Of a stretch of DNA of 64,000 nt, positions 6,675 through 36,651 are shown one piece after another. The position numbers and the translations under genes were made by a program. The notes below the pieces were generated by a model. It was not told the DNA's origin. It saw only the letters and a list, made by a program, of their open reading frames with translations, and did no database searches. The DNA lies in the IMG/VR virus record IMGVR_UViG_3300005663_000028, positions 115,554 to 179,553 of that record, one strand, 5' to 3'. Numbering within the stretch: the first letter of the stretch is position 1; every line of letters starts with the position of its first letter. Source of the DNA: a virus.

Positions 6675-7026
6675 CTTGATCCTTTCCACTAAAAGGAGAG
6701 CGACCCAACTGCTCATCCGCCCTTTGAGATTCACTCGGAGTCATAGCATGAACACCTTTACCGGCATTCAGTGCAATTGCTTTGTTCTTAGGTTTAAGGC
6801 AAACGAGACGGTCATCCATATGATTAGGCTTTGATTTCTTTTTCTTATCCTTTTTGGGTTTTTCTGTTTGTTCGGACATATCTTCTTGGCTAGATAAAAA
6901 ACTATCAAGAATAGCAGATATATCGCTCAGAAAAACCTGTCGTGTTTTCGTCGTTTTCCGACCTAGATTCACCGTCGAATCTTCTAGAAACCTTAAAAGC
7001 TTTGCCTTAAATTTACTTGCTGTCAT
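6664..7026 (-). CDS. Unknown Lys-rich protein
   Basis: 120 aa. A helical N-terminus (1-45) is followed by a strongly basic KPKKDKKKKSKP stretch (about 56-67) and a polar tail. Such tails usually bind nucleic acid or are disordered. No family recognised. Confidence 0.6.
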   Translation of the reverse strand: MTASKFKAKLLRFLEDSTVNLGRKTTKTRQVFLSDISAILDSFLSSQEDMSEQTEKPKKDKKKKSKPNHMDDRLVCLKPKNKAIALNAGKGVHAMTPSESQRADEQLGRSPFSGKDQDGE

Positions 7027-7321
7027 TACGAAACCTCCTTTGTGCTACAATATACGATGTTCTATTTTTACTTCGCAAAAATGTCGTATACTGCTGATAA
7101 CACTCCTGACTACACGCTATTAATTTCCAAAACATACCACCACGTTCTTTGTCTTTCTTGTGTACATTGTTGCTAGAGTTCAGTGGGTCAAACAAGTCCC
7201 CCTCACCAGACGCTAACACAAAAAATCTATTATCCAACCACTTAGCAAAAACCTTAAAATCCACAACCACTCCATCGGTTTTGTGGGGTGTTCCATTTAT
7301 GTCAACAGTAATTAAATTCAT
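7013..7321 (-). CDS. Unknown protein
   Basis: 102 aa. It begins with a beta-hairpin-like MNLITVDINGTPHKTDG and contains WLDNRFF and GGMFWKLIACSQECYQQY. No domain recognised. It overlaps both neighbours (14 and 4 bases), consistent with an operon. Confidence 0.6.
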   Translation of the reverse strand: MNLITVDINGTPHKTDGVVVDFKVFAKWLDNRFFVLASGEGDLFDPLNSSNNVHKKDKERGGMFWKLIACSQECYQQYTTFLRSKNRTSYIVAQRRFRNDSK

Positions 7322-7656
7322 TTTTTAACCCACGTCTTAAAAAGAAAGTCTGCTTCTGGAGCCCCGGTGGTATCGTTCTCAATATCGAATCCAATCTGAT
7401 CGTTGGGAGCACCAGGATAAAACTGTCCAGCAACTTGTTCCACATAAGAATATCCAGAACAAAATCCACACTTAGCAACCACTCTTGTAAGCACTTGTGA
7501 TTGAGGTTGAGGTTCTTTACTAATACTGGTTAGCTGTAAACACAATAGTTTTTCCCCACAGTCTGCACAACAAAGAGTGACAATACCTCTGTCTACCAAA
7601 CCCTTGAGTTGGCGTTCTTGCTGTTTTCCAATTTCGAGTTTCTTTTTTTCCATCAA
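7318..7656 (-). CDS. Unknown zinc-ribbon protein
   Basis: 112 aa. Two Cys pairs, CCADC near residue 30 and KCGFC near 66, are spaced as in a zinc ribbon with beta strands between. No larger family recognised. It starts inside the stop of the FmdB-like gene, so the two zinc-ribbon genes are probably co-translated. Confidence 0.6.
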   Translation of the reverse strand: MMEKKKLEIGKQQERQLKGLVDRGIVTLCCADCGEKLLCLQLTSISKEPQPQSQVLTRVVAKCGFCSGYSYVEQVAGQFYPGAPNDQIGFDIENDTTGAPEADFLFKTWVKK

Positions 7657-7964
7657 TCTATCGTTCCTTCCCTAATGTATTTTTCCGGATTCTTGAGTAT
7701 TCTTTTGTCTACTTTACCATCTCGCCACCACGGTTGCTCTGCCTTAAACTTACCCTCTCCAAGCTTATCCTTCTTAGGCAAAACTCGCCCCCCAGTACAC
7801 TTATTCTTTGTTCCTTCAATGATTGGCGACAAACCCATACCAATCAGTTTAATCAACTTTGGTCGACCACACCTAGGGCAATCAACAAGAGGCTCTGAAG
7901 ACATCGAATGAAACGCCTCAAATCCATGATCACACTCACCGCATTCATACTCATATGTCGGCAT
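7653..7964 (-). CDS. FmdB-type zinc ribbon protein
   Basis: 103 aa. The start MPTYEYECGECDHGFE and the later CPRCGR match the FmdB/CxxC_CxxC regulatory zinc ribbon: a beta hairpin at residues 1-40 binding one zinc through C8, C11 and a second CxxC. The rest is charged and probably flexible. Function in phages is unknown; nucleic-acid or protein binding is likely. Confidence 0.8.
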   Translation of the reverse strand: MPTYEYECGECDHGFEAFHSMSSEPLVDCPRCGRPKLIKLIGMGLSPIIEGTKNKCTGGRVLPKKDKLGEGKFKAEQPWWRDGKVDKRILKNPEKYIREGTID

Positions 7965-8266
7965 TAATCATTCCTAGTTGTTGATAATACTTTCACCGAA
8001 TCCGGAGGAATTTCTTTAATGTTCTCCATGGGATCAGGCTCTTGACTTAGGGTGTCAAAATGTGCAAGAACTTTTTCTCTATCACATTCATCAACACCAA
8101 ACAATAATTGTTCTTTTAATCTTTGCGCCTTTTGCTCTTCTGTCGGTTTCAAGTTTAGAAGATCACCCAGTCCTTGCGCATCTTCCTTCAAATCCCAAAC
8201 ACAGAAGTTCTGAAAAGTTCTACGAATCCACCTACAAAAACGTGCTACTAATCTTTTTAATACCAT
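7964..8266 (-). CDS. Unknown protein with basic helical N-terminus
   Basis: 100 aa. The first 20 residues are Arg-rich and amphipathic (MVLKRLVARFCRWIRRTF); the remainder is acidic and helical. The start could be membrane-associating, but no clear transmembrane segment follows. No family recognised. Confidence 0.55.
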   Translation of the reverse strand: MVLKRLVARFCRWIRRTFQNFCVWDLKEDAQGLGDLLNLKPTEEQKAQRLKEQLLFGVDECDREKVLAHFDTLSQEPDPMENIKEIPPDSVKVLSTTRND

Positions 8267-8272
8267 AATTTC

Positions 8273-8488
8273 TTATCCCATGTTGATATTAACCTGAATC
8301 ATATCTTTAACCTGTTCGGCATCACCGTTCATACTGAATTCTTTTAGAAAAAGAACTATATCCCCAAGAGTCGCTTTATCAAGATAAACATTGTGAAGAC
8401 GCTGCATATTGGTTGATCTTATTTTTTTCTCAACTTCCCGTTGAGTTTCTGATTGTTCACAAACAGACATTGTATTGGTTACTGTCAT
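8273..8488 (-). CDS. Unknown small protein, first gene after a phage promoter
   Basis: 71 aa, helical and polar, no recognised domain. GGGGAACAG lies just before the ATG. The gene is preceded by the conserved promoter motif and the 9-bp-arm dyad at 8516-8560, so it probably heads the 341-8488 transcription unit. Confidence 0.6.
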   Translation of the reverse strand: MTVTNTMSVCEQSETQREVEKKIRSTNMQRLHNVYLDKATLGDIVLFLKEFSMNGDAEQVKDMIQVNINMG

Positions 8489-8515
8489 TCTGTTCCCCTT
8501 TTTTGTTTTTCTTAC

Positions 8516-8560
8516 GATAACGGGTATACCCCGTTATCTTACTATACCTCTAACTCCTTT
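8516..8560 (-). promoter_or_regulatory. Promoter with inverted repeat over the start site
   Basis: On the minus strand GGAGTTAGAGG precedes a -10 box TATAGT (8541-8546), then AAG and an inverted repeat with arms GATAACGGG and CCCGTTATC (8516-8538). The same arrangement recurs at 20149-20195. Because the dyad covers the expected transcription start, it may be an operator or a 5'-end hairpin. The -10 box overlaps the stop codon of the upstream gene. Confidence 0.65.
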
Positions 8561-9111
8561 TTTTGCCCCACAAATGTCCCTCTTTTTCTTGCAAAATGTC
8601 CTAAATTTTTCCGATCCTTCTCACAATAATCACCCAGAGCAACACATTTTTTCAATTCCCCCTTGATTTTCGACACAGTGTCCGGAGAATCTTTTCCCAC
8701 ATCTTTAATCGCACCGGTCAGCATTGACAACATGTTACCCCGTTTCATAAACGCCCGGACCAACAAAAGACCCGCTCCAAGAAAAATTACAGCCATGATA
8801 GATGTTCCTATGACTACGGCTCCAGCACCACTATAATTGATAGTCTCCGCCTGTATGCTTTTCCTCCAGACGGATAATTCTTCGGCGATTTGAGTCGTTT
8901 GTTCTATTCGATTGTTGACCTCCCCTATCTGATCTGCAACGACGGTATTATCGGCCTTTTGGTCAACGATTTTTTCAAGGACACCCATATCATTACGAAT
9001 CCCCTGTATATCTGTCTTGACTGCCTCTGGAGAGACGCAGGATAGCAAGACACAAAATAGAATAGTAAAGACTACAGCACCGACGCTTACTTTTTTCGTT
9101 TCTTTGGACAT
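8542..9111 (-). CDS. Probable lipoprotein/membrane protein with coiled coil
   Basis: 189 aa from MSKETKK. Residues 10-27 form a hydrophobic segment ending LLSC, a possible lipobox. About 30-85 has heptad-like repeats (DIQGIRNDMGVLEKIVDQ), and 100-125 is a second strong hydrophobic helix. The layout could suit a spanin-like or envelope protein, but no lysis gene is recognised nearby. The longer in-frame start at 9183 overlaps RNase H deeply and was rejected. Confidence 0.65.
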   Translation of the reverse strand: MSKETKKVSVGAVVFTILFCVLLSCVSPEAVKTDIQGIRNDMGVLEKIVDQKADNTVVADQIGEVNNRIEQTTQIAEELSVWRKSIQAETINYSGAGAVVIGTSIMAVIFLGAGLLLVRAFMKRGNMLSMLTGAIKDVGKDSPDTVSKIKGELKKCVALGDYCEKDRKNLGHFARKRGTFVGQKKELEV

Positions 9112-9739: not shown

Positions 9740-10692
9740 AACGGTGTCTCCCCATCTTCAATTTCAGTTATCGGACCTGAGCACATATCGCGCATAAAGC
9801 ATTTTTTACACGCATATTCATTATCCGTCTTGGGGAAAAAGTCGGGGTTGTCTCTATTTTCGAAAGCCTTCTTAAGCATTGGGGATTCATTCCGAATTAT
9901 ACCAGCCTGTCGCTTCATGTGCTGCATCGTTACTTCTAGATGTGGAGCGGCCTGTTCTCCCAATTCTGCAAACGCTGCGAGATACACTGGGATAATCACA
10001 ATATCTTCTGGCTTCTTGGCCCATTTCTGCTTTAAAGCATAAATCCCATAAGTAACCAACTGGTCTATCACTGAGTCAGACACTTTACCAGTCTTCCAGT
10101 CCAGGAGATAAACTTTACCTTTATACCTAAATCCACAGTCGATCTTAAGCGTTACCTCCTCTCCCGTGTCTAGCTGAAACTTCTGGAAATCCTCTAATGT
10201 CAACCAATCTTCGTTTTTCAGACCCTTAAGAACCTCGAATAGAGGCATCTCATAAAAAGCCTTGAGTGATTTTAAAACCTTCTGCTTACATCGATCGGTA
10301 GTATCCTTATCGATATCCTCTTGATAAAAATGTTCTGAGAGGTTAATATTTCCCTTTGGCCTCCCCTGCCACCTCTTATCGATGCTTTGCTTCCAGCCCT
10401 TTCTGAGAGCTTGAATGCCACCCTTTTGTGCTTGCTCTAAATTTATCCACTCTCCAGTGGCCCGACCAGTTGTGATGATTTCTTCTATGATATTATGCAC
10501 CACTGAGCCCGTCCACATCGCAAAATTCGTCATCTGTTTGAGCATATAGGCGCGCCTTTTTTCTTGAGGAGCTTGTGATTCCCAACCTTTCCAGGCAGTA
10601 TTATACATTAAATTATACTTCCACATACACTCTCGCATACACTGAACACGAGAATTCGACCACGCATAAGATTGCTCGAATATTTTACCCAT
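9736..10692 (-). CDS. PD-(D/E)XK nuclease, Cas4/RecB type
   Basis: 318 aa. The catalytic core reads LKIDCGF then YLLDWKTGK, giving D185, D198 and K200, with a supporting H66. Four cysteines frame the domain (C18 or C22 near the N-terminus; C295, C298, C304 in CKKCFMRDMC), the Cas4/AddB-type pattern that can hold an Fe-S cluster. Phage members act as 5'-3' exonucleases in replication and recombination. No cas genes or CRISPR arrays are nearby. Confidence 0.88.
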   Translation of the reverse strand: MGKIFEQSYAWSNSRVQCMRECMWKYNLMYNTAWKGWESQAPQEKRRAYMLKQMTNFAMWTGSVVHNIIEEIITTGRATGEWINLEQAQKGGIQALRKGWKQSIDKRWQGRPKGNINLSEHFYQEDIDKDTTDRCKQKVLKSLKAFYEMPLFEVLKGLKNEDWLTLEDFQKFQLDTGEEVTLKIDCGFRYKGKVYLLDWKTGKVSDSVIDQLVTYGIYALKQKWAKKPEDIVIIPVYLAAFAELGEQAAPHLEVTMQHMKRQAGIIRNESPMLKKAFENRDNPDFFPKTDNEYACKKCFMRDMCSGPITEIEDGETPF

Positions 10693-11335
10693 TGATTTTT
10701 CCTTTCCTTGTTCTTACCGGTGTCGTTAAAGCTTTTTCTATTGTCCATTTACGTCTTAATCTCGTAAAAAGTGTACTAGGTTTAATATCAACTTCTTCGG
10801 CCCAAGCTGCAATGCATTGTGTTTTCCCAAAACAAGTAATTAAACGATTGTTTCGCTTATTTCTCATTTGTTCTTTTTTAGTTGCCCATCGACAGTTGGA
10901 TTTATAGTATCCTTTATCATTATTAATTCTGTCAATCTGAAGCCCCTTTGGGGCTTCACCCATATCTTTGAGAAAATTTTCAAATTTTCTCCATCGCTTG
11001 CAGACTGTAATTCCTCGACCACCGTAATCTTTCCATTGTTTATTATTCGGATTATTACATCTTTGAATCATATCCTGCCATATTTGAAAAATACGAGTTA
11101 CTTTATTTTTTCTTGCGTGTCCGTGTTGAGTAAATCTTTTTATAGATTCTTCTTTTCGCCAACATCCACAACTTTGAGTATGACAATTCTTAAGACTCCC
11201 AGCCCGTGCAGTAATCTTATTTCCACAATCACATATACATAGCCACTGAATATTATTGTGTTTATCCTTGCCGTCCACACGAATAATAATCAATCTCCCG
11301 AACCTCTTCCCAGTTAAATCAATAAACTTACCCAC
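10685..11335 (-). CDS. HNH endonuclease (copy 1), free-standing mobile gene
   Basis: 216 aa from a GTG at 11335. It has N-terminal Cys pairs (CICDCG, CGC), the HNH-like core YGGRGITVCKRW ... IDRINNDKGY ... NCRWATKKEQ, and a C-terminal helix-turn-helix-like segment. The close paralogue at 25241-25888 also starts at GTG with an aligned N-terminus, which supports this start; upstream in-frame ATGs lie in a repetitive stretch inside the preceding gene. Such genes spread by homing. Confidence 0.88.
   Translation of the reverse strand: MGKFIDLTGKRFGRLIIIRVDGKDKHNNIQWLCICDCGNKITARAGSLKNCHTQSCGCWRKEESIKRFTQHGHARKNKVTRIFQIWQDMIQRCNNPNNKQWKDYGGRGITVCKRWRKFENFLKDMGEAPKGLQIDRINNDKGYYKSNCRWATKKEQMRNKRNNRLITCFGKTQCIAAWAEEVDIKPSTLFTRLRRKWTIEKALTTPVRTRKGKING
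10908..11014. repeat. 107-bp direct repeat, HNH copy 1
   Basis: This stretch is nearly identical, with about two mismatches seen by eye, to 25461-25567. It codes for the central HNH core in both endonuclease genes, while flanking parts have diverged more. Recent gene conversion or strong selection on the core would explain it. Confidence 0.85.
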
Positions 11336-11882
11336 TTTTCCACTCTTCTCCTTCATCATCCTCATCGTCACAATCATTCTCATTCTCATCCTCATCCTCA
11401 CCATATTTATCCAACCACATCCCGACTCCTTCCAGGACTCCTTCTCCTATTATGGAAATACCCATCGCTTGCATGAATAGATTCTCAGAATCATAAATCA
11501 GTTTCAGGATAGGTTCGTCGTCAATTACAATGGATGTCAAAGAAAACTCGAAAATAAAGTAGATAATTTTTAACACTTCAGATGACAATGATTGTCGAGC
11601 AGCCATTTCGTCTAATAGATGGCGTAACGATTTTTGGCAATTATCTTTGAATTCGATGTCTTGTTGATCGATTTCCAAAAATTCTTCTGCAACAGCCTCA
11701 ATTACCTTGACAACCTTTCTGGATTCCCAGCGAAGGACATAAACAGTTGTCATTGCAGACTTCATTTTGATTTTTTCAAATCCCTCAATAATGTCTTTAT
11801 GTTCCTGATCATTTTCAGGTGCGAGCATTTTGACATTATGTTCTTCAACAACCTTCACTTTTCTTCTCCTTAATAATCTCAT
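11328..11882 (-). CDS. Unknown helical protein with acidic tail
   Basis: Up to 184 aa. Mostly helical, ending in a run of Asp/Glu (about 157-180) that creates the repetitive DNA in which the next gene starts. A GTG eight codons inside (at 11858) has an ideal GGAG spacer and may be the real start. The first 30-40 bases duplicate the start of the gene at 12282. No domain recognised. Confidence 0.6.
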   Translation of the reverse strand: MRLLRRRKVKVVEEHNVKMLAPENDQEHKDIIEGFEKIKMKSAMTTVYVLRWESRKVVKVIEAVAEEFLEIDQQDIEFKDNCQKSLRHLLDEMAARQSLSSEVLKIIYFIFEFSLTSIVIDDEPILKLIYDSENLFMQAMGISIIGEGVLEGVGMWLDKYGEDEDENENDCDDEDDEGEEWKSG

Positions 11883-13746: not shown

Positions 13747-15516
13747 CTAAAGATCACATGTACCACTAGGGCAGTCATCAACTGCCGCCTGTTCTTCCGA
13801 CTGCTCCAAGTACTTTTTAGCTTCTGACAGCGGGACAGGTGTTAGGGGAGACTCGCTCCGACTACCGTCCCGATATATGGTAACACCCTTCAACTCACCT
13901 ATGTATTTTCTGATAGCGAGGGATAGTTGCTCGACAGAAAAGTCTGTAGAAACATTAATTGTTTTGCTAATCGCCCCGTCAATATGTCTCTGACACACCG
14001 CTTGCATTTTCAGATGATCTTCTGGTGAAATATCGTGTGCGTTTTGAATGTGCTTAATGGACTTATTTTTCCTGAGAAACTCAGCTAGTAATGGATGAAT
14101 TATAACTCTTGTTGTTCCATTTCTTTTATCTTTGTTGTGCATGTCTTTGTGTTTGTTGAATCGTCTCTTATGAACTGCCTGAAACACTGGTTCTATACCC
14201 GACGAACAACCAGCGACTAATGAGATAGTCCCGGTCGGCGCGGCCGCTAGTAAGGCACAATTGCGAATACCATGTTCTTTGATTAGACGATGATGACTGC
14301 GAGTAAGATGTTTTTTTGCAAATCCAGTTCTGGTGTGCTTAGTTGCATCAAAAGCTTGAAATGACCCCTTCTCTACGGCCAAAGTAATACTAGCATGATA
14401 AGCCTGCTTTTTGATAAAGTTCATAACCTTATCCACAACTTCTCTAGCTTCTTTACTAGAATATTTGAGGCCAAGTTCAATCAACATGTCGTGCAACCCC
14501 ATGACACCTAAACCAATCCGACGATGTTTTTGTGATGTCTGCTTAATGATTTCGAGTGGGTAATTGTTTTGTTCCAATACGTTGTCTAGAAACCTGACTC
14601 CAATAGCAACAGTTTCTTCTAGTAAGTCCCAATCTACTTCTCCGTTTATTATATGTGTGTGGAGATTAACAGCACCTAAGCAACAACATCCGTATTCTTC
14701 CAACGAAACCTCACCACATGGATTAGGAGACGAAACCTCTCCACCACTAACATATGATATAGTATTTTGTTCTTGCATGAGGCCCATATTGAGTAAACCA
14801 GGGTCTCCACCGTTCCATGCATTTTGAATAATCTTATCCCACAAGTCTTGAGCAGCAATCTTTCCTCGCTCTTCACCCTGCCACTTAAAGACTACGTCTT
14901 CCTTACTATCCAGTAGTTTGAAAAACTCATCATCAACCAGTACAGAAATGTTTGCATTAGTCAACTCATTATGGTCTAGCTTAGCTTCAAGAAACTCTGG
15001 CAAATCAGGGTGTCTCCAATCAAGACAGTAGAGTAAGGCACTTCTTCTGCCACCTCCCTCACGTAACTCATTACAGACTGCGTTTATGGCTCGCATAAGA
15101 CTAACCGCTCCGGTAGCCTCGCCGCCAGTTCCTCGAATGGGAGTACCTCTTGGACGTATTTTTGAAAAGCTAATTCCAACCCCTCCGCCTGTACCAGATA
15201 TAATCGTAACCGACCTGAGAACATCTCCCCATCCTTCTCTACTATCCTCAGCAGGCAAACAAAAACAATTTAATAACATCCCCCTTGGTCGTCCTGCTCC
15301 CCTCCATATTCTTCCCCCAGGAGAAAACCGGTTGGTTTGCAAAACATCCAAAAATCTATCAAAGTATTCATTTCGTTTAGTACCTAATTCTGCATCAGCT
15401 ATTGTTCGAGCTACTCGTTCACACGCTTCGGCAAAAGTTTCATCTTTGTGGATTGCATAACGATCTAGAAAAATTTCTAGAGCATTGCCTTTTGGTTCGT
15501 AAACTTCCAGACTCAC
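13747..15516 (-). CDS. nrdJ: Ribonucleotide reductase, class II (B12-dependent) type
   Basis: 589 aa. It has the catalytic NPCGE loop (N265, C267, E269), the partner cysteine C84 in LLNC, the glycine-rich SGTGGGVG segment (107-114), an ATP-like APTGTISLVAG segment, and a C-terminal CPSGTC (C582, C587) that can re-reduce the active site. No small subunit (NrdB) gene is nearby, which fits the adenosylcobalamin class. It would supply dNTPs, with dCMP deaminase and ThyX acting downstream. Confidence 0.9.
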   Translation of the reverse strand: MSLEVYEPKGNALEIFLDRYAIHKDETFAEACERVARTIADAELGTKRNEYFDRFLDVLQTNRFSPGGRIWRGAGRPRGMLLNCFCLPAEDSREGWGDVLRSVTIISGTGGGVGISFSKIRPRGTPIRGTGGEATGAVSLMRAINAVCNELREGGGRRSALLYCLDWRHPDLPEFLEAKLDHNELTNANISVLVDDEFFKLLDSKEDVVFKWQGEERGKIAAQDLWDKIIQNAWNGGDPGLLNMGLMQEQNTISYVSGGEVSSPNPCGEVSLEEYGCCCLGAVNLHTHIINGEVDWDLLEETVAIGVRFLDNVLEQNNYPLEIIKQTSQKHRRIGLGVMGLHDMLIELGLKYSSKEAREVVDKVMNFIKKQAYHASITLAVEKGSFQAFDATKHTRTGFAKKHLTRSHHRLIKEHGIRNCALLAAAPTGTISLVAGCSSGIEPVFQAVHKRRFNKHKDMHNKDKRNGTTRVIIHPLLAEFLRKNKSIKHIQNAHDISPEDHLKMQAVCQRHIDGAISKTINVSTDFSVEQLSLAIRKYIGELKGVTIYRDGSRSESPLTPVPLSEAKKYLEQSEEQAAVDDCPSGTCDL

Positions 15517-20204: not shown

Positions 20205-20236
20205 AAATGTAAGGAAAACCATGGTTTTTTTCTTAC
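20205..20236 (-). terminator. Probable terminator after thyX
   Basis: GTAAG-AAAACC pairs with GGTTTT-CTTAC around an AT loop (20209-20236), followed on the minus strand by ATTTTTG. It overlaps the thyX stop codon. The stem is A/T-rich, so strength is uncertain. Confidence 0.55.
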
Positions 20237-22050
20237 ACTCTAGGATATTTTGATTCAACCCCCTCGGTTCCATCTTCCAGCTTGACTATTTCCAGTCCAT
20301 GTGCAAAAAGCGGTGCTTTATCTTGTAGGATACGGCAGATTTTGACGGCAAGCTTTCTTATCTCAAGGTCGGCGGCCGGATTTGCCCGTAATTCAATCAA
20401 GTGACGAATTGCTCTTGCATTCATTGTGACAACTATTTTGGTTTCTGTGGCATTCGGCAATACAGATCGTGCAGCTTGACGAGCCTTTTTCCTCCGTTCT
20501 AGTCCACTCTCTATATCACTATACATATCCGATAGTTTAGTTGTCAATTCTTCATAGACTTGTCGAGACCTTTCGCAGTGTTCAATCCACGATCGATAAG
20601 CTTCTGGATCAATCTTTTCCAATTCTTGCATAGCAGGAGGAACTATAAAGGACACATCAGAAGAATCAACATACCGTTGACTAATTTGAGAATACGAAGC
20701 AATTCTGTGACGAACTAACTCGTGTGTTAAGCTGCGGGAAACATTCCATATTAAGAAATTGAAACTGGCATGCTCAATACAAGAATTTCCACACCATACC
20801 GGTTTACCATTTCTTCTGACATAAAGTGTATGATTTGGAACTTCTACGCAATAAACATTCCCTTCCCAGGAATCAATCCAGGATGTTTTTCCTACGCAGT
20901 CAACATATTTGTTCACTTCAGGCTTAAGTTCTTTTCTTATGACAGATAAACGTATAAGTGTTTTATTCCCGAATGAATTTTTTCTTTGTGTTCCTTCGTA
21001 TTCGTGGCAGATGTTGGCAGCCAATCCTATGTGTAGACATAATTGTTGAAACTGGTTTGCCAATTTCCTACTCGTAGTGTCAAAGGATATTTGGTGTGAT
21101 CCCCGCGATCCATCAGCTTCTATCAAGCCTTCATACAAAGCAGTTAATTGATCAATGGAACTTTTCACAAATAAATATTGTGGAATTTGCTTGTTTCTAT
21201 CCTCGGTATACATATCTCTAAACACACGAACTTCTGCATCAGTAGACAAGGTTACAGCAAAGTTTCCGTCTTGACCCTCCCTAATTGGTAAATTCAGTGA
21301 CTCACACAATCCTTTTAGAAAAGAAATTTTTCTCTCCTTGTATAGATGAAACTTTACTTGCCTGCTGTTTGGTTGACTACTTCCGTCTCCAATGGCAAAT
21401 CCCAACAATTTATAATGATTACAACTCATATCATCTGTTTGGTGTCTGATTTTCCAATCCGCAGTTTTAATATATGCGTGTGAGGAATCATTTAGTTCAT
21501 CCGCCCTAATTAGGTCAAAATTTTCTCTTTTTCTGCCTTGTTTAGTGGTGGTTTTGCATACCAACATACTGTGATTAGGAGTCACTAATAAGTCTACACC
21601 CTTACCCTCCACTCGATACATCTTACCTTTATGTAAGTATGTCGTAAAGTTAGATGCTGGTTGATATTCCAGTTTGCCATCTACACTTCTCGTAGCAAAC
21701 AAATCTTTGTCACAAATATCTCTAAAGTATTTCCACCCATCAGATGTAAGAACTTCTGTCTCTTCATCATAACAGCCATGTCCTATCTCAATGAGATGCT
21801 TAATATGATCTTCGTGAGACCTTCCCTTGGGTTCCTCTCCCTGTTTGGGCCAACTTAAGTAGCATAATCTCCCCGCTGCTTCCACTAGCCATTCCGCATC
21901 GTCATCACCAAGAGATATCATAGACTCTAGCTTCTTTTCGAATTCAGGCCAAGCGAGGCCATGGTCTTGTAAGAATTCTGTTATTCCATCAATTTCTATA
22001 ACTGGTTTTCCCACCAGTACGACTTTCGGTTCAGTTACAAAATTACTCAT
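20233..22050 (-). CDS. thyX: Flavin-dependent thymidylate synthase ThyX with intein
   Basis: 605 aa in one frame. Extein parts 1-92 and 423-605 join to a 275-aa ThyX with the signature RHRIASYSQISQR. The intein runs from C93 (block A CYDEETEVLT) to HTLYVRRNGKPVWCGN with the +1 residue S423, about 330 aa. It carries two LAGLIDADG-type motifs (LLGFAIGDGS and LYEGLIEADGS), so it is probably an active homing endonuclease. It interrupts the conserved GH-x-S segment. ThyX makes dTMP from dUMP using FAD and folate, downstream of the dCMP deaminase. Confidence 0.94.
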   Translation of the reverse strand: MSNFVTEPKVVLVGKPVIEIDGITEFLQDHGLAWPEFEKKLESMISLGDDDAEWLVEAAGRLCYLSWPKQGEEPKGRSHEDHIKHLIEIGHGCYDEETEVLTSDGWKYFRDICDKDLFATRSVDGKLEYQPASNFTTYLHKGKMYRVEGKGVDLLVTPNHSMLVCKTTTKQGRKRENFDLIRADELNDSSHAYIKTADWKIRHQTDDMSCNHYKLLGFAIGDGSSQPNSRQVKFHLYKERKISFLKGLCESLNLPIREGQDGNFAVTLSTDAEVRVFRDMYTEDRNKQIPQYLFVKSSIDQLTALYEGLIEADGSRGSHQISFDTTSRKLANQFQQLCLHIGLAANICHEYEGTQRKNSFGNKTLIRLSVIRKELKPEVNKYVDCVGKTSWIDSWEGNVYCVEVPNHTLYVRRNGKPVWCGNSCIEHASFNFLIWNVSRSLTHELVRHRIASYSQISQRYVDSSDVSFIVPPAMQELEKIDPEAYRSWIEHCERSRQVYEELTTKLSDMYSDIESGLERRKKARQAARSVLPNATETKIVVTMNARAIRHLIELRANPAADLEIRKLAVKICRILQDKAPLFAHGLEIVKLEDGTEGVESKYPRV

Positions 22051-23403: not shown

Positions 23404-23777
23404 ATTTTCTTTCCTTTATGCGAATATGCGAAACTAATACAAAACGAATCCACATTGGGAATAAACGGCAAAGCGAATATTTCTTTAGTTTTCTGATGTA
23501 AAATAACTTCTGACATCAAATGATCAATGAGTTGCCCCCGCTCTGTTGCTGTTTTTGTGTATTCAACGTTTAAAGAAATATGAGTAATTTGTCCATTTCC
23601 ATCAAACTCTTCTTGAAGAAAGAGTAGTTGTTTACGTCTACCTTTCTGAGTTTTTGCAAATTCCAAACAATAGATTTTAAAAGAATAATCATCTCCATAA
23701 TCTACTTCATAAGTTTCAACAACTTCACTACCTTGGATTTGAATTTTATTTGATTCCAGAAAGCTTTTCGTCAACAC
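23400..23777 (-). CDS. Unknown protein
   Basis: 125 aa. Predicted beta-rich (SEVVETYEVDYGDDYSF then QITHISLNVEYTK) with a helical segment between. No family recognised. It overlaps the BrxL-like gene by 7 bases, so the two are probably expressed together. Confidence 0.6.
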   Translation of the reverse strand: MLTKSFLESNKIQIQGSEVVETYEVDYGDDYSFKIYCLEFAKTQKGRRKQLLFLQEEFDGNGQITHISLNVEYTKTATERGQLIDHLMSEVILHQKTKEIFALPFIPNVDSFCISFAYSHKGKKI

Positions 23778-25240
23778 TTGACTTCTCCTTTTGTTATTTT
23801 GTACGGAAGCGTAACGCCCTTAAATTCGTTCGGTGAAATTATTGCTAACTGTTCCACCACACGACTCCTAAGACTAACAGCAATATCTAAAACAATTTTC
23901 AATTCACTCGACTCAACAGTATCAGAAGTTCTATGGGGAAATATCAGCTTCAACAACCCCGATCCAATCCGGACCAAAGACCTTTGATTCCGTTGAGACA
24001 TATCCCCAAAATCGACGTTACCCATTATAAGCGGAGCGTAGTTTCTATCTCTCATATGATGCATAATTTCACTGATATAATCGGCCATAAACCCTTCACC
24101 CTTAGCGAGCTTTGATTCACGAATCTGTGGGATGCGCCAACCTGGAATATACCCGTGTATTCTATCAAGGAAGGCTCTGTCTTGATTGATTACTTGGGGG
24201 AATGGGGAGAACAAACTGCGATATCTTACAGAGACTTCTCTTTTGTTGCGATCACAATCAATGTTGCCAGCAAACATAATGGAGCAACCGGAAGTAAATT
24301 CCGCTGTACCACGACCAAATCGCCCCGAATTCATAAAGTCCTTCAACATATCTATCAAGTCGCCTTGCCCAGACCACTTATTGGCCCCTCGACTACTAGC
24401 AAACTCATCGAACATAACTACATCTCGGTATCCAATGAGACCCAACTGTCGTCTCAGTTTGTCATAAAACAAGGATGCTACAGTAGTTTGACCACCAGAA
24501 ATAACAAAACTATAAGAACTGAGTGATTGATATGCAAATGTCTTTCCAGTCTCTGGTGGTCCCAGTTCTACAAGATTGACGTTGGGTTCAATAAACGGGA
24601 CCAATCTTGCTATGTATAACCACTTCTCCTCTTCAGAAAGATGATCCGGATCAAACCCAATGCTGGTAATCATCAAGTCCAACCATTCTTGGTCTGTAAG
24701 TTTAGCTCTACGTTCTATCCAAGTATCGACGTTGATTCCAGTAATTTGAATTGGCTTGAACTCGGTCAGTAAAAACGGATACAATTTGTTTCTCATCACA
24801 AACGAATCATCATAAATGATTTTGAAAACCCCCCAAGCCCCTGTCGTCAAGAGAGTCTCCCCGAATTCTGCGATAAGATAGGGGTCTATCCTTACGTATT
24901 GGTTCCCCAAAGCTGTGACATCACACCAATATTCATCTTTCGATTCATCATATCGACATCTGATTCGGCCAATGAGGGTGTATTCACCCTTCTCACGAAT
25001 TTGACTTTTCACCCAATCCTTCTGATCAGCTTCCATAAAATGCGAATCGAGAAGCTTACCAATTCTTTCCAACCCAGGAGTCGGATCGGTGGGGTCTACC
25101 ATTTCTGCAACAAGGAAATCTGCTACAAAACTTGGTAATTTTCTCCATTGTTCATTCAAGATTGTCAGACTTTTGTTTACAATTATTCCGCGATCTGGGA
25201 AAACAGTAGTTATTTTTGATCTTGTCTCAGTTTCGATCAT
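23771..25240 (-). CDS. BrxL-like AAA+ protein lacking the Lon protease domain
   Basis: 489 aa. The whole length follows the N-terminal and AAA+ parts of BREX-system BrxL: an N-terminal domain (LPSFVADFLVAEM, SQIREKGEYTLIGRI), the LVELGPPETGKT Walker A (227-234), the SGGQTTVASLFYD segment, DVVMFDEF Walker B (273-280), KDFMNSGRFGRG, MFAGNID and LDRIHGYIPGW. Full BrxL is longer because of a C-terminal Lon-like domain; here the protein ends soon after the AAA+ lid. BrxL forms MCM-like rings on DNA. No other BREX gene is in the window, so a phage replication or counter-defence role is inferred. Confidence 0.85.
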   Translation of the reverse strand: MIETETRSKITTVFPDRGIIVNKSLTILNEQWRKLPSFVADFLVAEMVDPTDPTPGLERIGKLLDSHFMEADQKDWVKSQIREKGEYTLIGRIRCRYDESKDEYWCDVTALGNQYVRIDPYLIAEFGETLLTTGAWGVFKIIYDDSFVMRNKLYPFLLTEFKPIQITGINVDTWIERRAKLTDQEWLDLMITSIGFDPDHLSEEEKWLYIARLVPFIEPNVNLVELGPPETGKTFAYQSLSSYSFVISGGQTTVASLFYDKLRRQLGLIGYRDVVMFDEFASSRGANKWSGQGDLIDMLKDFMNSGRFGRGTAEFTSGCSIMFAGNIDCDRNKREVSVRYRSLFSPFPQVINQDRAFLDRIHGYIPGWRIPQIRESKLAKGEGFMADYISEIMHHMRDRNYAPLIMGNVDFGDMSQRNQRSLVRIGSGLLKLIFPHRTSDTVESSELKIVLDIAVSLRSRVVEQLAIISPNEFKGVTLPYKITKGEVKC

Positions 25241-25888
25241 TTATTTTCTCCGCTTCTTATGTTTTCTCACTGGTGTCATTAAGGCTTTTTCTATTGACCA
25301 ACCATGATTTAATCTCCAGTAAATAGTATTGACATGAATTCCAATTTCTTCAGCCCATGCTGTAATGCATTGTGTTTTCCCAAAACAAGTAATTAAATGA
25401 TTTGTCCGTGTATTTCTTGCCTGTTCTTTTCTGGTAGCCCAGCGACAATTAGATTTACAATATCCTTTATCATTATTAATTCTGTCAATCTGAAGCCCCT
25501 TTGGGGCTTCACCCATATCTTTGAGAAAATTTTCAAATTTTCTCCATCGCTTGCAAACTGTAATTCCACGACCACCATAATAGAGATAATTACCATTACT
25601 GGGATTGGTACATCGTTGAATTATGGCAGCCCATATCATATAAGTTTTAGATGATTGACCATTCTTGTTATGACCATGAATTGTATTTTTCATGCTAGTC
25701 ATTTTCTTTTGTAGACAACCACAACTTTGTGTGTGGCCACTCTTTAGATAATCACCGCGAATAATTTTTTCTTGTCCACAATCACATCGACACAACCATT
25801 CATGATTTCCATATTTATCTTTTTTAAGATGTCTTAATACCAAAAGTTTACCAAATTTTTGTCCAACCAAATTTATTAATTTTGACAC
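25241..25888 (-). CDS. HNH endonuclease (copy 2)
   Basis: 215 aa from a GTG at 25888. Same architecture as 10685-11335: N-terminal Cys pairs (CRCDCG, CGC), core YGGRGITVCKRW ... IDRINNDKGY ... NCRWATRKEQ, then an HTH-like C-terminus. It sits directly upstream of the BrxL-like gene with no gap, consistent with a homing gene that inserts between ORFs without breaking them. Confidence 0.88.
   Translation of the reverse strand: MSKLINLVGQKFGKLLVLRHLKKDKYGNHEWLCRCDCGQEKIIRGDYLKSGHTQSCGCLQKKMTSMKNTIHGHNKNGQSSKTYMIWAAIIQRCTNPSNGNYLYYGGRGITVCKRWRKFENFLKDMGEAPKGLQIDRINNDKGYCKSNCRWATRKEQARNTRTNHLITCFGKTQCITAWAEEIGIHVNTIYWRLNHGWSIEKALMTPVRKHKKRRK
25461..25567. repeat. 107-bp direct repeat, HNH copy 2
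   Basis: Partner of 10908-11014; nearly identical DNA covering the HNH core. Confidence 0.85.
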
Positions 25889-29927: not shown

Positions 29928-30149
29928 TTATTTTGTTAAGCCTCTAGCAAACTGTTTCGCATCAGAAAAGCAGAAAAAATCTTGATACCACGATTGGCGT
30001 TTTGGGGAGATAGACACGGAATAATAGAATCTATTTCCGTATGCATTATATTTTCTTATGGCATAACTTCCATTATTCTGGACTAATTTTCCCCTGGAAT
30101 CGTATTCTCTAATCCAAACTGTTTTACTTCTACCTCTAGTTCGAGACAT
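29928..30149 (-). CDS. Unknown small basic protein
   Basis: 73 aa from MSRTRGRSK at 30149, which follows AGGAGG. Arg/Tyr-rich beta segments (FYYSVSISPKRQSWYQ). The start at 30233 was rejected because it overlaps the upstream gene by nearly 100 bases. Confidence 0.55.
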   Translation of the reverse strand: MSRTRGRSKTVWIREYDSRGKLVQNNGSYAIRKYNAYGNRFYYSVSISPKRQSWYQDFFCFSDAKQFARGLTK

Positions 30150-30390
30150 AAAACAAACCTCCTGGAGAAAACTCCTTAATCTCGAACTCAATCGCTTTCT
30201 CACGGTTTTTGTTTTGGTGAAGAATTTTCCCATCTAGAGATAAGACCTGCCAGACTTGTTCGCCTTCATGAAATTCTACGTTTGATGCTTTGTGGACATT
30301 TGTTACTTTACCAATAGCGAACAAGTCGATTTGGTCTGTCCATAAACAGTGAACATCACCTTGGTTATCTATGTCTAAAACCACCTTCAT
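30136..30390 (-). CDS. Unknown small protein
   Basis: 84 aa, beta-rich (MKVVLDIDNQGDVHCLW at the start resembles the DUF2997-like opening of 28427). No firm family. It overlaps the next gene by 14 bases. Confidence 0.55.
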   Translation of the reverse strand: MKVVLDIDNQGDVHCLWTDQIDLFAIGKVTNVHKASNVEFHEGEQVWQVLSLDGKILHQNKNREKAIEFEIKEFSPGGLFYVSN

Positions 30391-30985: not shown

Positions 30986-31181
30986 TTTTTATCCTTTCTT
31001 GTTTGTCCATAGCACTTTCAAGGTCTTTCCCCACCGCTTCCCAATCTTTGCGAATAGTATCCTCATCAGTCACAGACAGTATTTTTTCCGTTTCTGCGAA
31101 TGGACGAGGGTTTTCTTTTGGGAAAATACCGATCTGTGACATAGCTTTCCATAGATTTTTCCAGAACTTTTTAAGGGTCAC
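30966..31181 (-). CDS. Unknown small protein
   Basis: 71 aa, helical with many Lys/Glu. No domain recognised. Overlaps the 31178-31420 gene by 4 bases. Confidence 0.55.
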   Translation of the reverse strand: MTLKKFWKNLWKAMSQIGIFPKENPRPFAETEKILSVTDEDTIRKDWEAVGKDLESAMDKQERIKNDNENI

Positions 31182-31420
31182 TTTTTCTTTCCTTCATTAG
31201 CTCTTTTTTCAATTTGTCTAATCTCTTCTTGTGAAAGATATTTGTAAGCAGCCATCCTTTGCTCTTTTGCATATTCTACTAAACTACCACAGCTAGCCCC
31301 ACCAAAAACACCTCTGACAAAAAGTTGTGTTCTTGCCGACAGATCGTCTGTATCGTATTTGTCTATAACGAATGTGGTGAATTCAGCTAATGCATAGGCT
31401 ATTTTATCGACAGACATCAT
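31178..31420 (-). CDS. Unknown small helical protein
   Basis: 80 aa, fully helical, ending in Lys-rich KRANEGKKK. No family recognised. The start (ATG at 31420 or 31417) overlaps the end of the GMP reductase-like gene. Confidence 0.55.
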   Translation of the reverse strand: MMSVDKIAYALAEFTTFVIDKYDTDDLSARTQLFVRGVFGGASCGSLVEYAKEQRMAAYKYLSQEEIRQIEKRANEGKKK

Positions 31421-32930
31421 TAATTGTCCCTTTTTGGTTTGTTATAGTAAAATCGACATTTGTTCGAAATTCATTAATATCAGAACATCCAGCATACGAT
31501 ATTCCCGACCTTAAAGAACCTGCATATCTTTTAAGTAACTTTTCTAATGATTCTCCTAGTGGAAGGTATTTTACGCAACCTTCCGGGGCGTCATTACTTA
31601 CTGAGCCTCTCCATTTTTCTTGTACTAATCTACTGGCCATTCCTGCATAGATTTTTTCTCCGTGTTCATTTAACAAGGCGGCACTTTCCGGGCATGAAGC
31701 AAAAATCTTACCAGCCATTACACTCGATGAGCCTGCGGCTATTGCCTTAACAAAGTCTGCTGGTTCCCTAATTCCTCCATCGCTAATTATTGGTAATCCG
31801 TAGGTTCTAGAGGCTGTTATACATTTCTGGATGGCTGAAAATTGTTTCTCCGTTACACCTGCCGTATTTTTGGTTTCACAAACAAATCCTTGTGCTATCC
31901 CAACCTTTACGGCCGATGCAAAGTCTGCGCTTTCTGCGAACAAACCTGGGTTAATTGTATTTCCAACTACGATATGAACGTTTGGTGCAAACTGTTTAAT
32001 TAGACGGCCAAGTTCTATAACAGGTTCACAATATCCATGCGCTACATCAATAAAAATAATATTAGCATTAGCCCGAATGAGCTTCTTGGCTAGATCAAAT
32101 TGTGAAACACCGATACCTACCGAAACCGCTACCCATCTGTTGTTTTTATGTATTTGGTTAGTCCATTTTTCCAACACGTTATCAGAAGAGGCCCTATGGA
32201 GAACCCCCATAGCTCCTAATTTTTCTAATAAAATACAAAATTCAGGGTTGGTTACAGTGCTCATGTTAGAAGCAATTAATGGAATATCTAATTCAACACC
32301 TCTTATTATTTCGGATACAATATTTACATTAGACCGTGATTGAACTACTGATTTTTTTTGAAGAATACTGACGTCTTCGAATCCGAGAGATATTGGTGTT
32401 GTCGACATTTTGATAGAGGGGTTAATAAAATATTCACAAGTACTATGGTCAAAATGAATAATACCCCGACCGACGAGATCAAAAGCAATTTTTTCCAATT
32501 TTGAATGTAATTTTCTATGGTTGGAATTACTTGATACGGCACAGAGGTTTGTCAATGAGTTATCGTCTTTTCGGCCGTTAATGTGGTGGATTATCCACCC
32601 ATTATCTATCAAATTAAACCCCGTGGTTTCTTCCATAACTAGATGGTGTTCCCCAATATAGCGTTTTCGTCTTTCATCCCAAATCATTATGTAATTACCA
32701 GGCTTACCGGCCTTGATTTTCCTACCGAATCTGGTTTTTATTTTTTGGTTGTCCCTGCTTCTGGAGCATGGTCCACACAAATCCTTTCCCCATTTTTCCC
32801 TAGAATCTTTGGCTTTTCTCCACTGTGGTTTACTTTCTGTCCCACAAGAGTCACATATCTTTAATACTAGGTATGTTCTCTTTAATGTTGAAAAGTCGTT
32901 TATTGTTTTATTATCAAGTGTTTTGATCAT
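31404..32930 (-). CDS. HNH endonuclease fused to GMP reductase/IMP dehydrogenase-like enzyme
   Basis: 508 aa. Residues 1-170 are an HNH domain: CDSCG and CGPC zinc pairs, then EHHLVMEE, HHINGRKDDNSLTNL and HRKLHSK. Residues 175-508 are a full TIM-barrel GMPR/IMPDH without CBS domains, starting LGFEDVSILQKKS, with SNMSTVTN, FIDVAHGY, and the active-site loop VGIAQGFVCETKNTAG (C351). GMP reductase is about this length. No ribosome site precedes M175, so one fused polypeptide is likely. Its ATG overlaps the stop of a 38-codon ORF that looks like another GMPR/IMPDH N-terminus. Confidence 0.85.
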   Translation of the reverse strand: MIKTLDNKTINDFSTLKRTYLVLKICDSCGTESKPQWRKAKDSREKWGKDLCGPCSRSRDNQKIKTRFGRKIKAGKPGNYIMIWDERRKRYIGEHHLVMEETTGFNLIDNGWIIHHINGRKDDNSLTNLCAVSSNSNHRKLHSKLEKIAFDLVGRGIIHFDHSTCEYFINPSIKMSTTPISLGFEDVSILQKKSVVQSRSNVNIVSEIIRGVELDIPLIASNMSTVTNPEFCILLEKLGAMGVLHRASSDNVLEKWTNQIHKNNRWVAVSVGIGVSQFDLAKKLIRANANIIFIDVAHGYCEPVIELGRLIKQFAPNVHIVVGNTINPGLFAESADFASAVKVGIAQGFVCETKNTAGVTEKQFSAIQKCITASRTYGLPIISDGGIREPADFVKAIAAGSSSVMAGKIFASCPESAALLNEHGEKIYAGMASRLVQEKWRGSVSNDAPEGCVKYLPLGESLEKLLKRYAGSLRSGISYAGCSDINEFRTNVDFTITNQKGTINDVCR

Positions 32931-33043
32931 GTTGTTGCTTCAGCTAGTCTGATAATTATATTCTGGGTCTTGTTCGAATTCAGAGAAGGTCGTTGCGGGA
33001 CCAGCAAGATGTCGTTAAAACAAAGATCGTGTTGTTCAGTCAT
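32927..33043 (-). pseudogene. Orphan N-terminal fragment of a GMP reductase/IMP dehydrogenase gene
   Basis: 38 aa. LCFNDILLVPQRPSLNS matches the universal IMPDH/GMPR start (usually FDDVLL-P-RS), then the frame ends. The TGA overlaps the ATG of the HNH-fused enzyme, which carries its own different version of the same segment. This looks like the 5' remnant of a resident gene displaced by an HNH-bearing copy. The ATG at 33043 overlaps the previous stop (TAATG). Confidence 0.65.
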
Positions 33044-33300
33044 TAGTCAATTTTCCATTTCTTGTTTTTCCCAAGGGTTAGTCCTAACGCGAAAGCTCTC
33101 ACTTCGTCTAGAGATTGAAATACCCCCATTTTAGTTTCACATCTTGGGTCTTGGCTATCCATCATAGACTGCCATTTGTTTATATACCTACTATCTCCCA
33201 CAATAAAGTTTTGATTATTTAAGATATCAAGGAAATAACAGTTTCTTCTCAGTTCGTCTTGTAATCGACGAAATCTAATTACCGTGGTAGAGTCGTACAT
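33043..33300 (-). CDS. Unknown small protein
   Basis: 85 aa. Contains RFRRLQDELRRNCYFLDIL and a C-terminal GVFQSLDEVRAFALGLTLG helix. No family recognised. Confidence 0.55.
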   Translation of the reverse strand: MYDSTTVIRFRRLQDELRRNCYFLDILNNQNFIVGDSRYINKWQSMMDSQDPRCETKMGVFQSLDEVRAFALGLTLGKNKKWKID

Positions 33301-33312
33301 TTGTTTCTCTCC

Positions 33313-33723
33313 TTAAAGTTTTATTTTTCTTACCAACGAATATTTCTTTTTGTCTGTTGGTTTCGGTTTGGGATTTTTGACGGCGTACTCGGATGCATAA
33401 TTTTTACCACCATGCCCTTCAACCACATTCAATACACTGTCTCCCGGTGCCGCTGCTGGTGCCCCCGCACACATTTTGAAAAATTGTTCTGGACTTATTA
33501 AGTCTATTCCTAAATATCGAGCAATTTTTGCCTTAGCAGACATGCTTGCCGGGTCAGCTATAACCAGTATAGTTGTTTTACTAGTTACTGTTTTGGTTGT
33601 TGACGCATTGGCAGCTACTGCTATGGCCTCCATTTCGCTACGAGGTTTAGGACTTTTACCTGTGAAGCAGAATATTGCTGGCTTTATGGCTCCAGTACTG
33701 TCATTCAAAAATTGCATTGGCAT
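33313..33723 (-). CDS. BRCT-domain protein
   Basis: About 136 aa. A single BRCT domain of the DNA-ligase type: IFCFTGKSPKPRSEMEAIA, then TILVIADPASMSAKAKIARYLGIDLISPEQF. The C-terminal 45 residues are basic and probably disordered. BRCT domains bind DNA ends or phosphoproteins; here it may serve replication or repair. No ligase catalytic domain is attached. Start is ATG 33723; an upstream TTG frame also exists. Confidence 0.83.
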   Translation of the reverse strand: MPMQFLNDSTGAIKPAIFCFTGKSPKPRSEMEAIAVAANASTTKTVTSKTTILVIADPASMSAKAKIARYLGIDLISPEQFFKMCAGAPAAAPGDSVLNVVEGHGGKNYASEYAVKNPKPKPTDKKKYSLVRKIKL

Positions 33724-33725
33724 TT

Positions 33726-33929
33726 CTATTCTGGTCCCCAACTGTATGACTTAAGAACCTTTCCATCTCTTTTAACCTCGAACGATCCACTACCATCTGC
33801 ATTTATAGTGGTTGAGGAGAATGTTCTCCAAGTATCCGCTTTACCCGTAGCCGATTGACTACCGAGTCTACTAGACCCTTTACACCTATTTGCATCATAT
33901 CCAAAAGCTCTTGCTCTACATTTAGCCAT
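33726..33929 (-). CDS. Unknown small protein
   Basis: 67 aa. Basic N-terminus (MAKCRARAFGYDANRCKGSSR), then beta strands (TINADGSGSFEVKRDGKVL). No family recognised. It lies between the BRCT and DUF1257 genes. Confidence 0.55.
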   Translation of the reverse strand: MAKCRARAFGYDANRCKGSSRLGSQSATGKADTWRTFSSTTINADGSGSFEVKRDGKVLKSYSWGPE

Positions 33930-35401: not shown

Positions 35402-35662
35402 TTAAAGTTCCGAGGGTTTTTGAAATTTACGTGGTTTAGGATTTTTGTTTTCCCATTGTAGTAAGCCTGTTTTTATTTCTGCCTCCATTTGTTCTTTTAG
35501 TTTTTGAACTATTTTTAATCTTTGTTTATGCTTTTTATCATCCCATTTAACAAACTCTGATGTGAGCTTTTTCTTTCCGTTACAGTACCCACACCGTACA
35601 GAGCGGTGCCCCAACCTTGTTTTTCCTTGTCCGTAACACTCGGGACAATTCCTAATTTTCAT
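35402..35662 (-). CDS. Small zinc-finger protein (DnaJ-like)
   Basis: 86 aa. N-terminal CPECYGQGKTRLGHRSVRC then GYCNGKK gives one zinc site; the remainder is a basic helix. It overlaps the DUF3150-like gene by 4 bases. Confidence 0.6.
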   Translation of the reverse strand: MKIRNCPECYGQGKTRLGHRSVRCGYCNGKKKLTSEFVKWDDKKHKQRLKIVQKLKEQMEAEIKTGLLQWENKNPKPRKFQKPSEL

Positions 35663-36651
35663 AATATGATCCTTCGTTTGAGTTCCCCAAGGAACCCACC
35701 TGCATTTTCACCCTCTGCCGCCGCCTTTTGTCTAATCGAGTTTAGCGCATTTGTTACTCCATCCTGCACTGTGGTTGATTCGAAATCTTCAGGAGATGCT
35801 GTAGAGTCCAGAAACATTTCGCTAAACTCTGTGAGCATTTTTTCTATGTCTTGGTCTTCAAAGATATTCATCTTCCGGAAACGATCGACGTACTTGCGAT
35901 AGCTGGTAATTGACCTAGCTGTTAGTTTCTTGCTCTTCTCCTCATCCTTGTAAGGTTGGCCACTGACACGGGCGGTCATCATGTCACAGAATTCGATCGT
36001 TTCTTGTCGCATGGCGGCTACATATTCGCCTACGAATTTCTCCACCTCTTTCTGCATTTGTTGTCGAAGTTCTTTTTCTCGTTCTATCTGGATTTTTTGT
36101 TTCGCCGAAACTTCCTCGACTGTGGTTTCTTGGATTGATCCAATCCCAGCTATTTGGAACAAATACCAATCGAACTTATATCGCTTTCTGAGGTGCTTTG
36201 TGCTTGCCGGGTAGTTTCCCTTGAGACATTTTTCCCAAAAATCAGGATGATCCTCCTTTATTTTACCAACGGTGTCGTCGAATCTGACCATGAAGCTGTC
36301 TACCCTATTGAAAAATTCCTCTTTGAGGTCTTTCAACTGTTGCTCTACGGTAGTTAGAATGTTGTTCGGTACAAAATGGGCGCTAGCCACGCAAAACGGG
36401 ATTGACCATTGTTCCAGAATCTTCCTTGCTTTTTGACTTATCTGGTCAAAGGCTTGAAGCTCTTCCTTTGGCACCATTAATTTTCTGCCGAGGTTGACTA
36501 TGTCGCTTGGAAGATTCTCTTGGTTTTCATATCCCATCTTGACGAGGTCTGCTCGTGTTAGCATTTTGCGTCCGCTCCACACCCCTATCTTAAGATTGAC
36601 GAGTGTTCCAAGTTCAAACAGATTGATTGTGTTTTTGTCTGTCGTTGTCAT
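35659..36651 (-). CDS. DUF3150-like protein
   Basis: 330 aa. The opening ELGTLVNLKIGVWSGRKML, the later LGRKLMVPKEEL, and the long central coiled coil (about 105-140, 180-225) resemble DUF3150 proteins of plasmids and integrative elements, which also sit beside AAA+ ATPases. The match is from memory and moderate. It lies directly downstream of the Ycf46-type AAA+ gene and may be its partner. Confidence 0.6.
   Translation of the reverse strand: MTTTDKNTINLFELGTLVNLKIGVWSGRKMLTRADLVKMGYENQENLPSDIVNLGRKLMVPKEELQAFDQISQKARKILEQWSIPFCVASAHFVPNNILTTVEQQLKDLKEEFFNRVDSFMVRFDDTVGKIKEDHPDFWEKCLKGNYPASTKHLRKRYKFDWYLFQIAGIGSIQETTVEEVSAKQKIQIEREKELRQQMQKEVEKFVGEYVAAMRQETIEFCDMMTARVSGQPYKDEEKSKKLTARSITSYRKYVDRFRKMNIFEDQDIEKMLTEFSEMFLDSTASPEDFESTTVQDGVTNALNSIRQKAAAEGENAGGFLGELKRRIIL

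Follow-up and report, generated by a model that had tools for sequence, protein, structure and literature searches.

Mobile endonuclease ORFs that replace the end of the gene they invade have been described in fungal mitochondria, at atp6 of Allomyces macrogynus and at atp6, atp9, cox2 and nad3 of Glomus (PMC3630166). In these elements, the endonuclease ORF carries a foreign version of one portion of its target gene, and this restores the gene, while the native part is displaced and matches its counterpart in close relatives (PMC3630166). Among phages, SegG, MobE and other free-standing endonucleases of T4 cut relatives that lack the homing endonuclease gene (HEG) and thereby spread, the flanks being co-converted; they are also able to exclude competing markers and to split the genes they target (PMC2988022). 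Our literature search, in which most subscription journals lay outside coverage, returned nothing directly relevant to an HNH-GMPR fusion or to xenologous displacement by homing endonucleases in phages.

Here, we analyzed a stretch of 64,000 nucleotides from the virus record IMGVR_UViG_3300005663_000028 (hereafter, the window), in which a GMP reductase (GMPR) gene fused behind an HNH endonuclease lies next to the orphan start of a second GMPR. The locus resembles Allomyces atp6 in two respects: the endonuclease is fused to a copy from another clade of the target gene (here termed GMPR*), and the displaced remnant matches the resident genes of five related contigs (L110, L111, L113, L119 and L127). 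In Allomyces and Glomus, however, it is the C-terminal end that is replaced, with the displaced copy lying downstream, and the enzymes are of the LAGLIDADG or GIY-YIG type. In our dsDNA phages, by contrast, an HNH stands at the N-terminus of a whole replacement gene from another subfamily, and it is usually a 5' piece that is displaced, lying upstream in the window; a downstream 3' remnant exists in L020/L021. Moreover, the Allomyces endonuclease has been biochemically tested, whereas the nuclease activity of HNH-GMPR is predicted from sequence. That the resident GMPR of the window was replaced by a xenologous HNH-fused gene, with a piece left behind, is well supported by the comparisons below, and we infer that endonuclease-driven homing was the driver. 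Overall, we consider it rather probable that the 508-aa ORF acts as a homing-type cassette: it pairs an HNH with an in-frame GMPR of its own, displaces the resident GMPR and supplies the replacement. The features of the locus are listed in Table 1.

Table 1 Features of the GMPR slot and its surroundings, in positions of the window.
Feature	Position	Strand	Basis or remark
38-codon stub	32927..33043	-	5' end of displaced resident (canonical-type) GMPR, by profile, PHROG and DNA comparison
HNH-GMPR fusion ORF, 508 aa (putative incoming cassette)	31404..32930	-	ORF and domain matches
HNH endonuclease part, residues 1-174	32409..32930	-	CxxC...CxxC zinc-finger-like N-terminus, HNH_3, C-terminal tail
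HNH_3 domain, residues 95-139	32514..32648	-	PF13392 (E 1.4e-7, above cut-off), conserved residues
GMPR* part, residues 175-508	31407..32408	-	TIM-barrel family domain, complete and including an N-terminus of its own; IMPDH/GMPR PF00478 at residues 182-501 (E 1.5e-61)
85-aa ORF upstream of stub	33043..33300	-	Its TAA overlaps the stub ATG (TAATG)
80-aa ORF directly downstream of fusion	31178..31420	-	In L113, its homologue precedes the intact resident GMPR
BRCT-like gene	33313..33741	-	Synteny marker upstream of GMPR slot
dn84, 84-aa gene	30136..30390	-	Synteny marker downstream of GMPR slot
330-aa marker gene	35659..36651	-	Used for finding related phages

The fusion ORF holds an HNH (beta-beta-alpha metal) motif with its catalytic residues. 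The zinc-finger-like cysteines of the HNH part (C26, C29, C52 and C55), together with H95, H115-H116, N124, N128, H138 and H142, are invariant in seven full-length fusions. Between the window and L007, the HNH is under constraint (pN 0.17, with pS saturated at 0.79). The GMPR start within the fusion is complete (SLGFEDVSILQKKSVVQSRSNVNIVSEIIRG), and Cys351 and Thr353 of the catalytic loop are conserved, being invariant in the fusions compared. Like the GMP reductase / IMP dehydrogenase family (PF00478, phrog_9582), GMPR* gives a full domain match and keeps the catalytic-loop Cys; it differs as a divergent phage clade with an N-terminal HNH. The GMP reductase and IMP dehydrogenase groups of NCBIfam both matched the fusion protein, all below their curated cut-offs. 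Domain and family profile searches returned no Hint or intein domain in the 508-aa protein, and no second GMPR was found in the 179,553-base virus record. The AlphaFold model of the fusion (seven sequences) had a mean pLDDT of 57 and was set aside. The linkers of the L028 and L114 fusions contain no ATG, GTG or TTG; judged from their reading frames, both must be translated as single proteins, because no start codon lies near the domain joint. The sole candidate start in the L023 linker is a TTG ~20 codons upstream of GMPR, and this fusion, too, is almost certainly translated as one protein. With its ORF continuous with GMPR, and with no internal start in L028 and L114, the element falls outside the class of free-standing HEGs: the T4 endonucleases are separate ORFs beside or inside their targets, whereas this HEG is fused in frame to the replacement of its presumed target.

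The 38-codon ORF upstream of the fusion reads MTEQHDLCFNDILLVPQRPSLNSNKTQNIIIRLAEATT and ends at a TGA that overlaps the fusion's ATG (ATGA junction). Pfam gave no match to this stub alone, and its sole match in the whole PHROG library was phrog_9582, which is the family of the barrel as well, at profile positions 5-38, the family's N-terminus (E 0.006). The stub scored 17.8 bits with a profile of 60 phage GMPR N-termini (best background 8.1 among 9,104 ORFs). Against 41,433 stop-to-stop segments from both strands, it scored 17.7 bits with a broad canonical-type GMPR N-terminus profile (background maximum 8.3) and 32.6 bits (E 1.3e-7, best background 8.4) with a profile of the intact resident GMPRs of the five related contigs, built without the stub. 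With a GMPR*-type N-terminus profile, it was absent among the best hits from the same segments, listed down to 6.8 bits. At the DNA level, the stub aligns with the L113 gene from the ATG to ~+88 nt, with several small indels; its homology to the resident GMPR is clear to ~codon 30-35, after which 3-4 unrelated codons and the TGA follow. Because the profile scores lie far above background and the DNA is homologous to the L113 gene, the similarity to GMPR is beyond chance. A chance ORF as the origin of the stub is ruled out by the profile scores against the 41,433 segments. Taken together, homology shows that the stub is the beginning of another GMPR, of the canonical type, which related phages keep intact. 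Simple duplication is likewise ruled out, as the two N-termini belong to different GMPR clades, ~31% identical, and L007, which has no stub, is ruled out as stub donor. Downstream in the window, neither full-length nor C-terminal profiles detected anything left of the resident barrel. The first-pass annotation had described a 38-codon GMPR-like start, joined at an ATGA to an ORF with an HNH domain and a full GMPR start of its own, and had argued against simple duplication; each of these elements was recovered, on the minus strand, and its caveat that the fragment might be unrelated to GMPR does not hold against the profile scores.

A search with the 330-aa marker gene yielded 21 loci, several of them on contigs already in hand (L117 = L007, L118 = L104, L122 = L008, L123 = L027, L124 = L001 and L125 = L009); the same gene was unmatched in a set of 50,697 phage records. 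Between the g153/BRCT-like genes and dn84, an intact, HNH-free canonical GMPR is present in L110, L111/L112, L113/L130, L119 and L127, that is, in at least five related phages with the same gene neighborhood. Its N-terminus (LCFNDILLVPQ; for the L119 example, MIDKQYDLCFNDILLIPQYS) is that of the stub. The slot holds an HNH-GMPR* fusion in L117 and L114, an HNH-free GMPR* in L118, and no GMPR in L116 and L120; in L123, L124 and L128, an HNH-free GMPR* lies nearby. The homologue of the 80-aa ORF stands on the other side of GMPR in L113; therefore, local gene order has been rearranged and is imperfectly collinear. The 85-aa ORF and the stub are likely in the same operon.

HNH-GMPR* fusions occur in the window, L007, L114, L019/L022, L020/L021, L023, L024 and L028. 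That makes at least seven contigs besides the window, drawn from several phage groups, with 46-77% identity among the fusions. In a FastTree phylogeny of GMPR, all HNH fusions form one clade (support 0.80, or 0.995 with L025) inside the GMPR* clade (1.0) and apart from the resident GMPR clade (1.0), the two types being ~31% identical. In the backbone tree, computed with the same program from three flanking genes, phages with the fusion are interspersed with those that carry a resident GMPR, L114 being sister to L110 (0.89); support is weak at several nodes, among them those that place the window (0.41-0.73). The window and L117, its nearest fused relative, share 80% identity in GMPR* and 71% in the HNH, against 49-61% in flanking proteins, whereas L114 and L110 share 63-79% in flanking genes and 31% in GMPR. 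Given this contrast between cassette and flanks, the cassette has been transferred and has taken the place of the resident gene, and the identity contrast and the disagreement between trees both indicate a horizontal spread independent of the phage backbone. The phylogenies thus show, at the level of sequence, that the fused GMPR* is xenologous, a single lineage incongruent with backbone genes across phages. Bacterial genomes added only one further GMPR* (L135), which is HNH-free and has an AP2/HNH ORF directly behind it. The first-pass suggestion that an HNH-bearing copy had replaced a resident gene and left a scar is upheld by the HNH-free residents of related phages and by the separation of resident and HNH-fused GMPRs into two clades.

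Scars of this kind recur. In L028, a 47-codon ORF with a canonical GMPR stub (52.4 bits) stands directly before the fusion; in L020/L021, the tail end of a canonical GMPR gene (26.9 bits, background at most 10) stands directly after it. Judged from these flanks, independent displacements are shown to have left a piece of the canonical gene beside the same cassette, a 5' stub in L028 and the 3' end in L020/L021. In the L008/L009/L010 group, a GMPR*-type stub (42.6 bits) is followed by a different HNH ORF and then by a full GMPR*. At the L007 and L114 cassettes, no scar is present. The 5' breaks fall at codon ~30-36 in the window, 34 in L009 and 43 in L028, in a gene of ~335 codons, a clustering that, with three cases, is suggestive. 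The upstream gene of L028 retrieved only L028 itself when used to find a before/after partner, and searches with the L028 and L020 flanks found no cultured phage sharing the locus.

Plain mosaic recombination could produce a stub as well: a xenologous GMPR would have been swapped in, with the HNH as a passenger and the stub as a scar of illegitimate recombination, and no endonuclease would have taken part. Phage genomes are mosaic, and the HNH-free GMPR* in the same slot (L118) or nearby (L123, L124 and L128) indicates that exchange without a fused HNH is possible. We nevertheless regard this explanation as unlikely, since all scars (window, L028, L020/L021 and the L009 group) adjoin an HNH gene and none was seen at GMPR loci without one. 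In addition, the HNH is constrained with invariant catalytic residues, the cassette exactly adjoins the remnants of the resident gene, and the three 5' break points lie within a narrow stretch (~codons 30-43).

The HNH half can also be lost. The GMPRs of L019 and L020 are nearly identical (pS 0.005, pN 0.001), and L019 has lost ~128 HNH codons, shows HH changed to HY, and no longer has the 3' remnant. The HNH half is decayed with GMPR kept in L019/L022, and in L026 only the HNH tail is left before GMPR*. We take this decay series to be one of invasion followed by loss of the selfish nuclease, with the useful gene kept. The same contigs bear on another idea, namely that the fusion is no mobile element but an enzyme dedicated to two functions, e.g., a nucleotide-pool enzyme combined with a nuclease against host or rival DNA. 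Retention of the fusion at 46-77% identity in at least eight contigs of several phage groups, with both halves constrained, would fit such a role. We hold it to be very improbable, given that the HNH decays while GMPR persists, that the same slot in relatives works with an HNH-free GMPR, and that the canonical GMPR of L115 is fused to a decayed HNH from an unrelated family.

As far as gene arrangements tell, other endonuclease families also attack the GMPR gene. The phrog_374 HNH family adjoins GMPR in L009, L127 and L129. In L115 (11556-12929), an HNH protein of an unrelated family, with its nuclease core missing, leads in frame into a canonical GMPR (phrog_374 is followed by phrog_3377, with nothing between). 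In L009 (5989-8052; also in L008 and L010), GMPR* is broken by a LAGLIDADG intein near the AGMS motif, so that several kinds of invader (stub, upstream HNH and intein) meet at one gene. The GMPR* of L025 (4827-5972) has a helix-turn-helix-like N-terminal extension (weak, E 0.03), possibly a relic of another endonuclease. The window itself contains two free-standing HNH ORFs of phrog_374 on the minus strand, at 25241-25888 (E 1e-71) and 10685-11404 (E 2e-76), the former ending directly against a 489-aa gene (23771-25240).

In cultured phages, relatives of the HNH part are located within thyX and DNA methylase genes or next to them. At three thyX genes (Vibrio phage pVa5, Alteromonas phage AD45-P1 and Vibrio phage 1.097.O), the HNH belongs to the same family, has a similar C-terminal tail and is housed in a group I intron, whose core was clearly detected (RF00028, 92-106 bits); the fusion, in contrast, has no intron core, and its ORF runs on into GMPR. 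Stand-alone HNH relatives terminate at the point where the fusion joins GMPR. The thyX kinship lends some color to a split gene, in which the 38 codons would be exon 1, the barrel exon 2 and the HNH intronic within a self-splicing intron, a possibility that the first-pass annotation had raised against its own proposal. Rfam searches detected no group I or II intron at positions 31000-33500 of the window even at E <= 5, and no intron core at the other fusion loci at gathering score. Furthermore, the ORF is open from the HNH into a GMPR with a complete N-terminus of its own, and the stub comes from another GMPR clade. An intron joining the 38 codons to the barrel is, therefore, scarcely credible.

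Several further genes in these genomes have unusual structures. In Mycobacterium phage Schatzie (L003, 2207-4091), an HNH ORF belonging to the family of the fused HNH interrupts a DNA methylase gene; the depositors were unable to place intron boundaries, no Rfam intron was found, and the interruption may be another gene-replacement scar. Just downstream of the L028 fusion (6380-8578), a ThyX-like gene appears to bear an intein. In the window, a 605-aa thymidylate synthase ORF (20233-22050, minus strand) matches phrog_85 in two stretches, which suggests that it contains an intein. The large subunit of ribonucleotide reductase (13747-15516, minus strand) matches its family only from position ~202 of 975, and its N-terminal part may be encoded separately upstream, as a split gene. 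A tRNA match at 61200-61303 (minus strand, 39 bits), with ~31 extra bases in the anticodon arm and without a report by ARAGORN, would be either a decayed tRNA or one that has gained an insertion.

Under the homing-cassette explanation, the HNH part would cut or nick HEG-less GMPR genes near their 5' end, and the break would be repaired from a co-infecting donor, whereby the cassette is copied in. One side of the repair would proceed via flanking homology, and the other end would join illegitimately, outside homology, stranding the first 30-43 codons of the resident. The incoming GMPR would be too divergent for cutting; it would restore the enzyme and tie the nuclease to a selected gene. Some observations count against this explanation. 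At ~31% protein identity, the GMPR genes are too divergent for ordinary within-gene strand exchange; therefore, the flanks would have had to supply homology on at least one side. Additionally, L007 and L114 are scarless, local order is imperfectly collinear, and support for the fusion clade is only 0.80. A more specific claim, namely a self-contained gene-replacement drive, in which the HNH half of a single polypeptide cuts the GMPR of rival phages near the 5' end and its cut-resistant GMPR half takes over the enzyme's role, the selfish nuclease thus spreading at the expense of a metabolic gene and leaving telltale 5' or 3' scars, seems to us evenly balanced between true and false.

The stub, with its stop overlapping the fusion's ATG, may now act as a translated leader. 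It could even have been kept for a function, either as a leader peptide that drives the fusion by ATGA coupling or as a peptide that complements its N-terminus. Its ORF is intact, with TAATG coupling upstream and ATGA coupling downstream; the ribosome-binding site of the fusion ORF is poor, and the L009 stub likewise leads straight into the next ORF. We think retention for function distinctly doubtful, however, since the fusion already has a complete N-terminus, L007 and L114 manage without a stub, the L028 fusion has a strong GAGGGGAGG site of its own, and the stub DNA carries small indels relative to L113. A leader role is compatible with the homing-cassette explanation too, and a catalytic role is unneeded.

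Our analysis goes beyond the first-pass annotation by at least seven further fusion contigs, independently recurring scars and other endonuclease families at GMPR. For one gene, related phages provide a before-and-after series: an intact resident, a 5' scar, a 3' scar, a decayed nuclease and a nuclease-free state. Therefore, endonuclease-driven xenologous replacement of phage metabolic genes becomes directly testable. Reading such stubs as scars explains orphan N-termini beside HNH ORFs, which an automatic annotation would label as frameshifts or pseudogenes. This mode of making hybrid genes, described until now in fungal mitochondria (PMC3630166), would thereby be known from phages too, and at a gene's 5' end.
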